Assembly (NCBI RefSeq): GCF_900078545.1
Contig: NZ_FLLS01000002.1
Location: forward strand, 1,249,404-1,313,403
Direction of reading: 5' to 3'
DNA from: Olegusella massiliensis
Lineage (GTDB): Bacteria > Actinomycetota > Coriobacteriia > Coriobacteriales > Atopobiaceae
DNA: 64,000 bases
The notes beneath the pieces were generated by a model that worked only from the letters and a program-made list of their open reading frames with translations, was not told where the DNA came from and did no database searches. Shown here in pieces: positions 4,918 through 32,695 of this stretch. A program made the translations under genes and the position numbers. How positions within the stretch are numbered: position 1 is the stretch's first letter; each line of letters begins with the position of its first letter.

Positions 4918-7104
4918 ATGAGTGAGATTAAAGAGCAGCAAGGTGGTGGCTGCAAGGAAGAAAAGCAGTGTCATTGCCATGAGGAGCAGCACGAGCACAG
5001 CCACGATTGTCATTGCCATGAAAAACATGACCACAGCCATGTGCATACTGACTCAGGTAATAGTAGTCATAATCATGAGCACTGCCATGACACAAAAGGC
5101 CATAGCCATGGATGTTGCTGTGGTGATTTGAGTCAAGCTCGCAATGAGGATGAGGAAAATCCTAAAGCCCAGCTCATCCGTATCATTGCTGCCGCTATTC
5201 TCTTGCTCATTTGTGTGGGTGTTGAGCGGACGTTTGAACCCTCGATGTGGGTTCGCCTTGTGATATTTGCTGTGCCCTATGTAGTCGCAGGCTATGATGT
5301 GTTGGCAGCGGCTTGGCAAGGGATTTGCGATCATGATCCGTTTGACGAGAATTTGTTGATGGCCGTATCAACGCTGGGTGCCTTTTCAATTGGTTTTTTG
5401 CCTGGTGGTGCGCCCGAATTTGCCGAGGCTGTCTTCGTCATGCTTTTTTATCAGGTCGGCGAACTCATCCAAGATGCTGCAGTGGATAAGAGCCGTGATT
5501 CCATCGCAGAGCTTATGGACATCCGCCCTGATATTGCCAATGTTGAGCGTGCTGGTAATGTTGTGAGCGTGGATCCTGCAGAGGTGGCGCTCGGCGAGCT
5601 TATTATTATTCGCCCTGGCGAGCGTATACCTTTGGACGGTATTGTTGTTGAGGGTAATTCAAGTTTAGATACAGTTGCTCTTACGGGTGAGAGTCTTCCC
5701 CGAGCTATTGGTGTAGGCGATGAAGCAATTTCAGGGTGTGTTAACCAATCGGGCACCTTGCGCGTACGCGTAACAAGCAGTGCTGGCGAATCCACAGCTA
5801 GTCGTATTTTGGATTTGGTTGAAGGTGCCCGCGAGCGCAAGTCTCGCTCTGAACGCTTTATCACACGTTTTTCTCATTACTACACTCCTCTTGTAGTATT
5901 TGCTGCGTTGGTGCTTGCCTTTTTGCCACCACTGCTGTCTGCTGACTTTGCTGCCGCCTTTCCCACATGGGCACTACGTGCTTTGACCTTCTTGGTTGTG
6001 AGTTGCCCCTGCGCCTTGATGGTGTCTGTACCCTTATCTTTCTTTGGGGGTTTGGGTGGAGCCTCGCGTCAGGGCATTTTGATTAAGGGAGGCAATTATC
6101 TTGAGGCTCTTGCCGCAGTTGATACTGTTGCTTTTGACAAAACAGGCACCCTGACTCGTGGCTCCTTCGAGGTGACTGCCGTGCATGATATTGCCTGCGT
6201 TGAGGCGGGAGAATATAGCAATGGTCGTGGCTATGCTGGTCTTGATGCTTGCGATGAAGATGAGCGCCGCCTGTTGCATCTTGCGGCCCATGTTGAGAGT
6301 TTTTCAACCCATCCCATTGCACTTGCTTTGCGTCAGGCTTATCCAGAAACAGATGATGATTGCAGCGTAAGCACTGCTCATGAAATTGCTGGTCAAGGTA
6401 TTGTTGCTACGGTTGATGGCAGACGAGTTGCTGTGGGCAACGAGCGCCTTATGAAAGCAGAAGGCGCGCATTTTTATCGTTGTGAACATGTAGGTGCTGC
6501 AGGTACGGTTATCCATGTTGCAATTGATGGTGTTTATGCTGGCCATATTGTTATTGCCGATGAGATCAAAACTGATGCTGCCAAGTCAATTCTGGCAATG
6601 AGGGAAGCCGGAGTTACAAAAACGGTCATGCTCAGCGGAGACCGCCAACAGACCGCGGCTGAAGTTGCTGACAAAGTCGGTGTTGACGAATACCATGCAG
6701 AACTTCTTCCTGGTGATAAGGTCAAACAAGTTGAGCATCTGCTTGCTACTGAAAAGACTGGTGGCAAACTTGCCTTTGTTGGTGATGGCATTAATGATGC
6801 TCCCGTTTTGGCGCGTGCAGATGTGGGTATCGCGATGGGTGCACTTGGATCAGATGCTGCTATTGAGGCAGCGGACGTCGTGCTGATGGACGATAGACCC
6901 TCACAGATTGCTGTTGCCATTCGTATTGCTCGCGGCACCATGCGTATTGCTCGTCAAAATATTTTCTTTGCCTTGGCTATTAAACTAGTGATTCTGACGC
7001 TGGCTGCGGTGGGTTTGGCTCCTATGTGGCTCGCAGTCTTTGGAGATGTAGGCGTTATGATTCTTTGTGTGCTTAATGCAACCCGTGCATTGCGCCTGAG
7101 CTAA
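4918..7104 (+). CDS. zntA: P1B-type heavy-metal (Zn/Cd/Pb) efflux ATPase with His-rich N-terminus
   Basis: This 728-residue pump should export Zn, Cd or Pb using ATP. Residues 18-66 are a His/Cys-rich tail with many HxH and CHCH pairs. It replaces the folded CxxC heavy-metal domain of typical ZntA/CadA, which I do not find. Downstream features are canonical: TGES (256-259), the transmembrane metal motif SCPCAL (362-367), the phosphorylated Asp in DKTGT (D407), an HP locus in STHPIA, and a GDGINDAP hinge. The CPC motif and a closing membrane pair fit the zinc group. It follows znuACB on the same strand but has its own ribosome site and a possible metal operator. Together with the importer it gives both directions of zinc homeostasis at one locus. 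Confidence 0.93.
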   Translation: MSEIKEQQGGGCKEEKQCHCHEEQHEHSHDCHCHEKHDHSHVHTDSGNSSHNHEHCHDTKGHSHGCCCGDLSQARNEDEENPKAQLIRIIAAAILLLICVGVERTFEPSMWVRLVIFAVPYVVAGYDVLAAAWQGICDHDPFDENLLMAVSTLGAFSIGFLPGGAPEFAEAVFVMLFYQVGELIQDAAVDKSRDSIAELMDIRPDIANVERAGNVVSVDPAEVALGELIIIRPGERIPLDGIVVEGNSSLDTVALTGESLPRAIGVGDEAISGCVNQSGTLRVRVTSSAGESTASRILDLVEGARERKSRSERFITRFSHYYTPLVVFAALVLAFLPPLLSADFAAAFPTWALRALTFLVVSCPCALMVSVPLSFFGGLGGASRQGILIKGGNYLEALAAVDTVAFDKTGTLTRGSFEVTAVHDIACVEAGEYSNGRGYAGLDACDEDERRLLHLAAHVESFSTHPIALALRQAYPETDDDCSVSTAHEIAGQGIVATVDGRRVAVGNERLMKAEGAHFYRCEHVGAAGTVIHVAIDGVYAGHIVIADEIKTDAAKSILAMREAGVTKTVMLSGDRQQTAAEVADKVGVDEYHAELLPGDKVKQVEHLLATEKTGGKLAFVGDGINDAPVLARADVGIAMGALGSDAAIEAADVVLMDDRPSQIAVAIRIARGTMRIARQNIFFALAIKLVILTLAAVGLAPMWLAVFGDVGVMILCVLNATRALRLS

Positions 7105-7188: not shown

Positions 7189-7438
7189 TGCCAAAAGCCA
7201 CGTTGTGTTTCAGAAAAAATGTCAAAAGCCACATTCTGTTTCAACGGTCCTGACGTTTCCGCAGATAGATTTTTTTCGCGTGAAATGAAACGTGGCTTTT
7301 GGCTAAAAAAGTGAAGTAGAACGTGGCGTTTGGCACCTGACATGAAACGGAATGTGGCGTTTGGCACTTGGCTTGAAGTGACATGAAACGGAATGTGGCG
7401 TTTGGCACTTGGTGTGAAATGAAGTGTGGCTTCTGCCA
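7189..7438. repeat. Phased inverted repeat array A
   Basis: Seven 25-bp units of consensus GTGAAATGAAACGTGGCTTT with a TGGCA end. Units at 7189-7213 and 7220-7244 are on the minus strand; units at 7280-7304, 7311-7335, 7342-7366, 7383-7407 and 7414-7438 are on the plus strand. Start-to-start distances are 31, 60 (across the centre), 31, 31, 41 and 31. The inner and the next unit pairs share one dyad at 7262, and CCGCAG (7259-7264) lies on it, followed by an AT-rich tract ending in seven T. The fifth and sixth units are identical. The segment 7189-7304 matches 32508-32623 of array B at about 105 of 116 positions without gaps. The array fills the gap between the convergent zntA and glmM genes, inside their two terminators. 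I find no supported gene in 7105-7551. Confidence 0.9.
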
Positions 7439-7551: not shown

Positions 7552-8886
7552 TTAGTCTAGAGCCTTTAGTGCCTCGACTACAGGGGCAACTGCCTCTTCG
7601 CACTCCCGTTGGGTGGGAGCTTCGGCCATGACACGGACAAGCTGTTCGGTACCTGAGGGGCGTACGAGCAAGCGGCCGTTACCGTTAAGTTTTGCTTCTA
7701 CTCCAGCAATTGCGGTCTTAACGCTATCGTGATTAAGAGCATGTTCTTTGTCAGAGACAGCAACATTGACCAGTGCTTGTGGGAAAATCGTTACAGGGGC
7801 AGTGAGTTCGGAGAGTGGCTTGTTCTTTTTGACCATTACCTCAAGGATACGCAGGGCGGTCATGATGCCGTCGCCGGTCACCTCATAGTCAGAGAAAATG
7901 ACGTGACCAGATTGTTCGCCACCCAGTTTGTAGCCATTCTCGCGCATGCAGGCATGGACGTACTTATCACCGACTGCAGTTTGAGTCGTCTTAAGACCGT
8001 TGGCCTCACAAGCTTTGAAAAAGCCCAGATTACTCATTACGGTAGCAACAACCATGTGGTCGGGGAGTTTACCTAGCTCATCGAGGTATTTACCGCAGAG
8101 GAACAGCGTTAGGTCGCCATCTACAACTTCGCCACGCTCGTCTACGGCAATGCAGCGGTCAGCATCGCCATCAAAGGCAAAACCACAGTCCAGCAGGTTG
8201 CCACGGACATGATCTTGCAGGGTAGAGATATGTGTGGAGCCACAATTGACATTGATATTAAAGCCATTAGGTGTGTCATTGATGACATGTACCTCGGCTC
8301 CAAGGGTGGTAAAGACGCGCTCGGCAACAGTCCAGCTTGCGCCATTTGCGCAGTCTAGGCCAATTTTCATGCCATCAAGACGGAAGTTTGCGGTAGCAAC
8401 CAGATGGTTGAGATAGCGCTCGCGGCCTGCTTCATGGTCGATAGTGCGGCCGATAGCATCGCCGGTAGCCAGAGGAACCTCAATCTTTCCATCGATGTAT
8501 TCCTCAACTTTCTCGAGGATTTCGGGCTCCATCTTGAAGCCATCACGATTGACCAGCTTGATGCCATTGTCCTGATAGGGGTTGTGGCTAGCGGTAATCA
8601 TGATGCCGCAGTCAAAACCACCATCAATAACAACATAGCTCACAGAAGGGGTGGGCGTGACATGCAGTAGATAACCGTCAGCGCCGCTCGCCACCAAACC
8701 AGACGCGATGGCATACTCAAACATATAACTGGAGCGTCGAGTGTCCTTGCCCACTACAATACGTGCTTTACGGCCTGTGCGTAGACCGTAATACCAGCCA
8801 ATATAGCGGCCAATCTTGAATGCATGCTCAACTGTGAGACCTTCGTTTGCCTTGCCGCGGAAACCATCAGTGCCGAAGTATTTCAT
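7552..8886 (-). CDS. glmM: Phosphoglucosamine mutase
   Basis: Interconverts glucosamine-6-phosphate and glucosamine-1-phosphate on the way to UDP-GlcNAc, peptidoglycan and cell-wall polymers. The 444-residue length is typical. Motifs in order: the catalytic phosphoserine in TASHNP (S100), the magnesium loop DGDADR (239-244), the sugar loop GEQSGH (322-327) and the phosphate-binding RPSGTE (408-413). The GEQSGH loop and overall length distinguish GlmM from phosphoglucomutase or phosphomannomutase. AAAGGAGTT precedes the ATG. The gene stands alone, diverging from the nicotinamidase-like gene and ending at a strong terminator. Confidence 0.95.
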   Translation of the reverse strand: MKYFGTDGFRGKANEGLTVEHAFKIGRYIGWYYGLRTGRKARIVVGKDTRRSSYMFEYAIASGLVASGADGYLLHVTPTPSVSYVVIDGGFDCGIMITASHNPYQDNGIKLVNRDGFKMEPEILEKVEEYIDGKIEVPLATGDAIGRTIDHEAGRERYLNHLVATANFRLDGMKIGLDCANGASWTVAERVFTTLGAEVHVINDTPNGFNINVNCGSTHISTLQDHVRGNLLDCGFAFDGDADRCIAVDERGEVVDGDLTLFLCGKYLDELGKLPDHMVVATVMSNLGFFKACEANGLKTTQTAVGDKYVHACMRENGYKLGGEQSGHVIFSDYEVTGDGIMTALRILEVMVKKNKPLSELTAPVTIFPQALVNVAVSDKEHALNHDSVKTAIAGVEAKLNGNGRLLVRPSGTEQLVRVMAEAPTQRECEEAVAPVVEALKALD

Positions 8887-9097: not shown

Positions 9098-9640
9098 ATG
9101 AAGAAAATCCTTGTTGTGGTAGATATGCAAAATGACTTTGTTGATGGCGCTTTGGGAACACCTGAGGCTCAGGCGATTGTTCCTGCAGTAGTCAAAAAGA
9201 TTGCGACGTATCCCGCTGATTGCGTGTGGGCCACAAGGGATACACATTCTGTTGACTATCTTCAGACTCAGGAAGGCGCTCATTTGCCCGTGGAGCATTG
9301 CATCAAGGACAGCAAAGGTTGGCAAATTTGTCCGCAGGTGGCTGCAGTTTTGAGCCCCACAACACGTATTTTTGACAAGCCAAGCTTTGGGTCGATGGCT
9401 TTGACTCAGGCGCTGGTAGAAGAAGATACCCGTGAACTTGCGCTTTCTGGTGAGCATATTGAAGTCGAGTTTATTGGTTTGTGCACAGATATTTGTGTTG
9501 TCTCTAATGCTTTGCTTGCCAAGGCGGCATTGCCTGAGGTAACGATATCGGTTGATCCAAGTTGCTGCGCTGGCGTTACGCCCGCAGCGCATGAGGCAGC
9601 CCTTGCCACCATGCGTAGCTGCCAAGTGCAAGGTGCATAG
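9098..9640 (+). CDS. Nicotinamidase / isochorismatase-family cysteine hydrolase
   Basis: A 180-residue cytoplasmic amidohydrolase. The start MKKILVVVDMQNDF at 9098 fits the family; the longer upstream reading has no ribosome site, while GGGGG lies just before 9098. The catalytic triad is visible as Asp9 in VVDMQNDF, Lys in DKPSFGS and Cys in TDICVVSNAL. The most likely reaction is nicotinamide to nicotinate in NAD salvage (PncA-like). The same fold also serves isochorismatases and other amidases, so the substrate is inferred. It is convergent with the DNA glycosylase gene, with a long hairpin between them. Confidence 0.8.
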   Translation: MKKILVVVDMQNDFVDGALGTPEAQAIVPAVVKKIATYPADCVWATRDTHSVDYLQTQEGAHLPVEHCIKDSKGWQICPQVAAVLSPTTRIFDKPSFGSMALTQALVEEDTRELALSGEHIEVEFIGLCTDICVVSNALLAKAALPEVTISVDPSCCAGVTPAAHEAALATMRSCQVQGA

Positions 9641-32507: not shown

Positions 32508-32695
32508 TGCCAAACGCCACGTTCCGTTTCAGAAAAAATGTCAAAAGCCACATTCCATTTCAAAGGGCCTGACGTTTCCGCAGGTAAATTTTTTTCGTGT
32601 GAAATGAAACGTGGCTTTTGGCAAAAACAGTGAAGCAGAACGTGGCTTTTGCCACGCGGAGTGAAATGGTTTGAAGTAGAACGTGGCGCATGGCA
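32508..32695. repeat. Phased inverted repeat array B
   Basis: Five 25-bp units of the same family as array A: minus strand at 32508-32532 and 32539-32563, plus strand at 32599-32623, 32630-32654 and 32671-32695. Distances are 31, 60 (centre), 31 and 41. The dyad of both nested unit pairs is 32581 and CCGCAG (32578-32583) lies on it, followed by GTAAATTTTTTTCG. It matches array A without gaps from its first unit onward. Substitutions between A and B change six of about 36 codons in the shared long minus-strand reading frame, so I do not regard that frame as a gene. The array sits between the convergent secG and oppA genes inside both terminators; no gene is seen in 32353-32812. Confidence 0.9.

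Follow-up and report, generated by a model that had tools for sequence, protein, structure and literature searches.

A helically phased repeat array in Olegusella massiliensis as a probable orphan of a solitary AbiEi-DUF559 gene

The closest described systems include REP/RAYT and AbiEi operators. In REP/RAYT systems (REPtrons), the repeats carry a GTAG or CGTC tag where a 20-40-bp hairpin has its foot, and the cognate gene encodes a Y1 (HUH) transposase. AbiEi operators belong to type IV AbiE toxin-antitoxin systems and are known for S. agalactiae AbiEi and M. tuberculosis Rv2827c (PMC7319586). AbiEi proteins bind inverted pairs of 23-bp units, through which they autoregulate, and full-length S. 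agalactiae AbiEi bends its promoter DNA (PMC7319586). The literature searched contained no description of repeats linked to AbiEi or DUF559 genes (subscription papers and preprints lay outside its scope).

The array, termed array A, was found in the window, the whole stretch of 64,000 nucleotides from Olegusella massiliensis that was analyzed. It is intergenic between two convergent genes, one for a metal P-type ATPase (ending at 7104) and glmM (ending at 7552). A 24-bp weight matrix identified seven units at 7189-7438, mirrored about the dyad at 7262 with CCGCAG (7259-7264) on the axis, as the sequence-only reading had described. Start-to-start spacings are 31, 61, 31, 31, 41 and 31 bp. The earlier spacing pattern holds, with the unit length (given as 25 bp) and the central spacing (given as 60 bp) each corrected by one base. 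Type-1 units follow the 24-bp consensus TGAAAYRRAACGTGGCKTTTGGCA, and the elements of the window are as follows.

7189-7212, minus strand: type-1 unit L2, outer left, PWM score 37.1
7213-7219: 7-bp linker GAAAAAA, conserved between copies
7220-7243, minus strand: type-1 unit L1, inner left, PWM score 37.9
7244-7280, plus strand: 37-bp centre between the inverted units, conserved among copies
7253-7269, plus strand: core ACGTTTCCGCAGATAGA, matching the motif RCGTTTNCGCAGGTARA with 1 mismatch, followed by a T tract
7281-7304, plus strand: type-1 unit R1, inner right, PWM score 37.7
7312-7335, plus strand: type-1 unit R2, PWM score 38.1, with the linker AAAAAAG conserved
7343-7366, plus strand: type-1 unit R3, PWM score 38.7
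7384-7407, plus strand: type-1 unit R4, 41 bp from R3, PWM score 38.7
7415-7438, plus strand: type-1 unit R5, partly decayed, PWM score 27.4
32508-32562, minus strand: left units of a second type-1 element (32508-32531 and 32539-32562), PWM scores 40.3 and 37.9
32572-32588, plus strand: core of the second element, ACGTTTCCGCAGGTAAA, an exact motif match
32600-32695, plus strand: right units of the second element, at 32600, 32631 and 32672, PWM scores 40.0, 34.5 and 27.9

Beyond array A, all window units of comparable weight-matrix score fall within this one homologous array at 32508-32695. Array A is thus not a chance arrangement, because a second array shares its units. Counted directly, the motif has 13 matches where 2.6 are expected, a number that no shuffle attained.

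Type-1 elements are dispersed over two related genomes. The window's genome (1.8 Mb) carries 8, including array A, and about 30 were found in the same-genus Atopobium sp. oral taxon 810 F0209 (hereafter F0209). Olsenella massiliensis has a single copy, and the rest of the 140 family genomes searched yielded none at E<=1e-5. Spacings that did not cluster across the genome had been named beforehand as one finding that would speak against the phased design, and the design withstood this check strongly. Of 163 same-strand spacings in F0209, 146 (90%) equal 31 or 41 bp exactly, and 17 of 22 inverted pairs at the centre are 61 bp apart. Same-strand spacings in the window's genome are 31 (20), 41 (14) and 42 bp (1), so that 34 of 35 are 31 or 41 bp. 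Linkers are of two kinds, either 7 bp (GAAAAAA, or AAAAAAG, beside the centre) or about 17 bp. Unit numbers and spacings differ between left and right arms, and inner units lack covariation, with TGAAACAG-type left units often paired with TGAAGAGA-type right units in F0209. The unequal arms and missing covariation favor phasing at the DNA level over an RNA stem. RNA structure was rejected accordingly as a candidate, and the search returned no credible Rfam family (the one match was a chance plant miRNA at E=0.1). Genes beside the elements are ordinary and mutually unrelated. With unrelated neighbors and no promoter bias, regulation of adjacent genes was likewise rejected.

The sequence-only reading had taken CCGCAG as a fixed centre and had named copies lacking it as a second refuting finding; this part did not withstand comparison. 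Across the eight copies in the window's genome, the hexamer at the dyad is CCGCAG (3), GCCCAG (3), GCGCAG (1) or GCTCAG (1). This varying hexamer sits inside a longer conserved core of 17 bp, the motif RCGTTTNCGCAGGTARA. The enclosing 37-bp centre is kept in 8 copies in the window's genome, about 18 in F0209 and 1 in Olsenella massiliensis. The core is also shared more widely. A core search located it in other Coriobacteriia between inverted arms of unrelated sequence, including GGTGTACATACCC arms in G099, CTCTCCCAAG arms in G311 and single inverted pairs in genus g34. Type-2 and type-3 arrays surround the core in the window's genome and F0209, again at 31-bp spacing. When at most one mismatch is allowed, 19 of 20 Coriobacteriia genomes contain 2-19 copies of RCGTTTNCGCAGGTARA each, as opposed to 0-2 for the reversed pattern. 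A stricter core pattern, which also misses the copies in the window's own genome, found no match in 396 phylum-wide genomes. Two elements of G061 (L139 and L166) were set aside, as the core matched only within their own palindromes.

Several arrangements were noted in passing. In F0209, type-2 and type-3 arrays lie between disA and clpC (L135:6375-6960), where the window's genome has type-1, and arrays of types 1, 2 and 3 adjoin one another at L143 and L114. No gene cognate to the type-3 units (GGAACCCTTTT) was identified. Also in F0209, a core-like GCGTTTGCGCAGGTCGG stands immediately upstream of an apparent TPP riboswitch (L051:1780-1990). Core copies without clear arms occur too, and a phage contig has five copies, all on one strand in about 400 bp (L193:4945-5348). 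Because the core is found without clear arms and in a phage contig, it may be bound by something other than the AbiEi-nuclease. Two viral contigs (L191:9415 and L192:13242) and G116 (L208) have the exact 17-bp core some 40-60 bp away from the 3' portion of a tRNA, a placement like that of a prophage attachment site. We rejected the view that the core is a phage element or attachment site, as the motif is class-wide and viral matches are only scattered.

The type-1 arrays are linked to a gene. In F0209, type-1 arrays lie on both sides of a solitary gene encoding P0001, a protein of 338 aa. P0001 combines an AbiEi-type DNA-binding region with a DUF559 (restriction-endonuclease-like) domain and is a predicted nuclease. 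A search of 18 genomes found homologs in 10. Paralogs in F0209 have their own units on either side, namely type-2 units (GAACCATC, 31-bp spacing) for L243 and a fourth unit type (TTGAACCC, about 30-bp spacing) for L252. The G119 homolog has core-plus-arm elements at both flanks. An unbiased inverted-repeat scan (arms of at least 16 bp, loop of 22-75) found inverted repeats beside 15 of 28 homologs, a density of 0.25 per kb. Other sequence, 136 kb in all, gave 0.03 per kb from four matches, of which three fall in F0209 and are of the same element types. Upstream-downstream flank similarity exceeded that of all 79 control ORFs at 20 of 32 gene loci (15 direct and 5 inverted; p=7e-14), the controls being drawn from the window and further loci analyzed, unmatched in base composition. 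Twelve of the 32 loci fail this test, among them L233, whose arrays simply lie outside the tested interval.

Gene-repeat linkage extends to more distant relatives, and distant family members have differing cores. Palindromes flanking a Collinsella aerofaciens homolog (annotated as hypothetical) recur at no fewer than 29 places on its replicon. In Tsukamurella tyrosinosolvens, which belongs to another class, a palindrome of about 64 bp lies on both sides of a DUF559 gene and is present at 20 places in eight records. No such flanking repeats accompany a Rhodococcus AbiEi gene that has its AbiEii toxin. By hhalign, the family matches the Tsukamurella DUF559 protein at E=2e-20 and the Rhodococcus AbiEi protein at E=2e-6. 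Coriobacteriia members have no match in Pfam or NCBIfam, and the linked gene has no Pfam transposase match. Up to 15 of 23 members have PADLOC AbiEi hits (best E 5e-11), and P0001 itself has none. The conserved residues E212, D245, E259, G262 and K265 of P0001 appear, by inspection, to fit a PD-(D/E)XK-type nuclease site. Mean identity is lowest in the N-terminal region (28%) and highest in the nuclease domain (47%). A variable N-terminal region with a steadier nuclease domain matches the variable units and steadier core of the arrays. A single-sequence structure model (pLDDT 34) was kept out of the argument.

The comparison of the two genomes points to loss. Five arrays of the window's genome stand at sites that are orthologous in F0209. 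For several F0209 arrays, the matching place in the window's genome is vacant or retains one or two outer units in decayed form. No gene of the P0001 family is detectable in the window's genome. Where synteny places the P0001 site, this genome lacks the gene as well as both arrays and retains only decayed outer units, and the type-1 gene was apparently lost. Array A is therefore most likely an orphan relic. Most between-genome array differences look like loss, and the compared sites show neither a target-site duplication nor a clean new insertion. The P3 site spans 17 bp in the window's genome and 2.3 kb in F0209 with no visible duplication, so insertion and deletion fit alike. Centres are 89% and 84% identical within genomes, against 76% and 73% in two orthologous pairs. 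Flanks of orthologous arrays are 88-90% identical. The higher identity within genomes, judged from these two clean orthologous pairs, fits copying between elements.

Some array copies adjoin a genomic island. In the window's genome, direct repeats about 8.9 kb apart (L109:425-828 and 9315-9487; contig C2 near 1504.9-1514.0 kb) flank a type I restriction island adjoining guaA, with a full array within one repeat and a single unit within the other. The lone Olsenella massiliensis array (L107:934-1260) has a short fragment of the guaA 3' end at its left, which suggests that this array was transferred along with a guaA-integrated island.

We suggest that array A is probably a solo orphan of the repeat element of an AbiEi-DUF559 gene. 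From homology, and from the size and layout of the units, we infer binding of each 24-bp unit by the AbiEi part. With units three or four helical turns apart, the protomers would share one DNA face and point at the centre from both sides, which could deliver the nuclease domains to the conserved core. A nick or cut at the core, if repaired from another copy, would homogenize the centres. Such repair-copying might also spread the gene together with its element and leave solo arrays behind. Arm units are specific to each paralog, and the core varies less, like the nuclease domain. Together, phased binding, core cutting and repair-copying would explain the phasing, the dyad, the conserved centre with variable ends, the flanking of genes and the homogenization. 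The sequence-only reading had offered two alternatives, a protein-binding array that nucleates a complex on the dyad and a palindromic element capable of movement. This interpretation is partly supported, and the evidence favors both together. The units resemble binding sites of an AbiEi-type protein, and AbiEi relatives bind 23-bp inverted units (PMC7319586). The copies are dispersed, decay upon gene loss and share centres within a genome, like mobile or gene-converting repeats.

Other explanations account for parts of these observations. The AbiEi-nuclease could repress its own promoter through an upstream array, with dispersed arrays serving as regulon or titration sites. AbiEi autoregulation and the many elements immediately upstream of the gene agree with such operators. 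However, other elements lie downstream, dispersed copies sit between convergent genes or after housekeeping genes without promoter bias, and no AbiEii (DUF1814) toxin was found among 55 neighboring ORFs in the Pfam matches listed. We consider operators as the whole explanation unlikely. A role in defense, with the nuclease attacking incoming DNA and the phased arrays anchoring or restraining it on the chromosome, seems more doubtful still. DUF559 and AbiEi are typical conflict-system domains, the family has PADLOC AbiEi matches and the core is present in phage contigs too. Yet no recurring defense partner stands beside the family genes among the matches listed, and such a role does not predict arrays retained after gene loss. 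No candidate gene was found in phages. Chromosome-organizing sites for segregation or nucleoid structure, recognized by a core-binding protein common to Coriobacteriia, would suit the class-wide core motif and the several positions orthologous in two species. Copy numbers of 8 and about 30 in two close species, the loss of arrays at many sites and arms that differ between families make this very improbable. Least probable of all is that the elements are RNA hairpins or ordinary MITEs mobilized by a classical transposase. Although they are inverted, dispersed and intergenic, the centre rather than the ends is most conserved, boundaries vary and the most frequent neighbors include no transposase family. 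Spacings on the left and right are unequal, and the many F0209 centres that pair TGAAACAG-type left units with TGAAGAGA-type right units would break an RNA stem. A classical transposon had been rejected as a candidate on the same variable ends, missing target-site duplication and lack of transposase neighbors.

Beyond array A, solitary AbiEi-nuclease genes, rather than a transposase, might drive a class of mobile repeats in at least two Actinomycetota classes. The product of each gene would assemble on its own array of helically phased units and cut the conserved core, repair would copy gene and element to matching sites, and solo arrays would outlive the gene. We regard this broader proposal as possible and advance it tentatively. 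The sequences themselves show the phasing, the dispersal, the linkage of genes and repeats, units specific to each paralog, a shared core and the loss at the syntenic site. Core cleavage, copying and the mode of spread or mobility are what we infer in both proposals. The model provides a hypothesis of function for a widespread uncharacterized family of AbiEi-DUF559 proteins, and gene-repeat pairs with matched, evolvable DNA specificity. The variable binding region and variable units form a natural set for learning how AbiEi proteins read DNA. Furthermore, a close species pair with and without the genes makes maintenance and decay directly comparable.

Comparisons with known systems define the position of these elements. 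Like MITEs and BIMEs, they are short, repeated, intergenic and inverted, but have a conserved centre with variable ends, and neither a target-site duplication nor an IS parent was found. As in homing endonucleases, a solitary nuclease gene has homology on both sides, and gene conversion would explain the shared centres; here, however, the recognition element is intact on both sides of the gene and cleavage is putative. With AbiE operators they share asymmetric units of 23-24 bp in inverted pairs and an AbiEi-family protein, the presumed binder here. They differ in that sites lie to either side of the gene and elsewhere throughout the genome, each side has several direct units, and a core stands in the middle. 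As no AbiEii toxin was found among the 55 ORFs beside the genes, the system is not an AbiE toxin-antitoxin, and a nuclease domain has been added. REP/RAYT likewise pairs a chromosomal gene with short palindromic repeats of its own that are dispersed and non-autonomous, with several such pairs per genome and the cognate gene flanked by its own repeat copies, though here the gene is absent from the window's genome. In contrast, the protein here is of the AbiEi-DUF559 type, and multiple helically phased 24-bp units surround a conserved core. No REP tag was noticed by eye in unit or element sequences. By analogy, the system would work like REP/RAYT through cognate gene-repeat pairs, yet it is no member, the enzyme being unrelated. 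If the model is true, the spread and persistence of short intergenic repeats in bacterial genomes would have a second explanation besides REP/RAYT.
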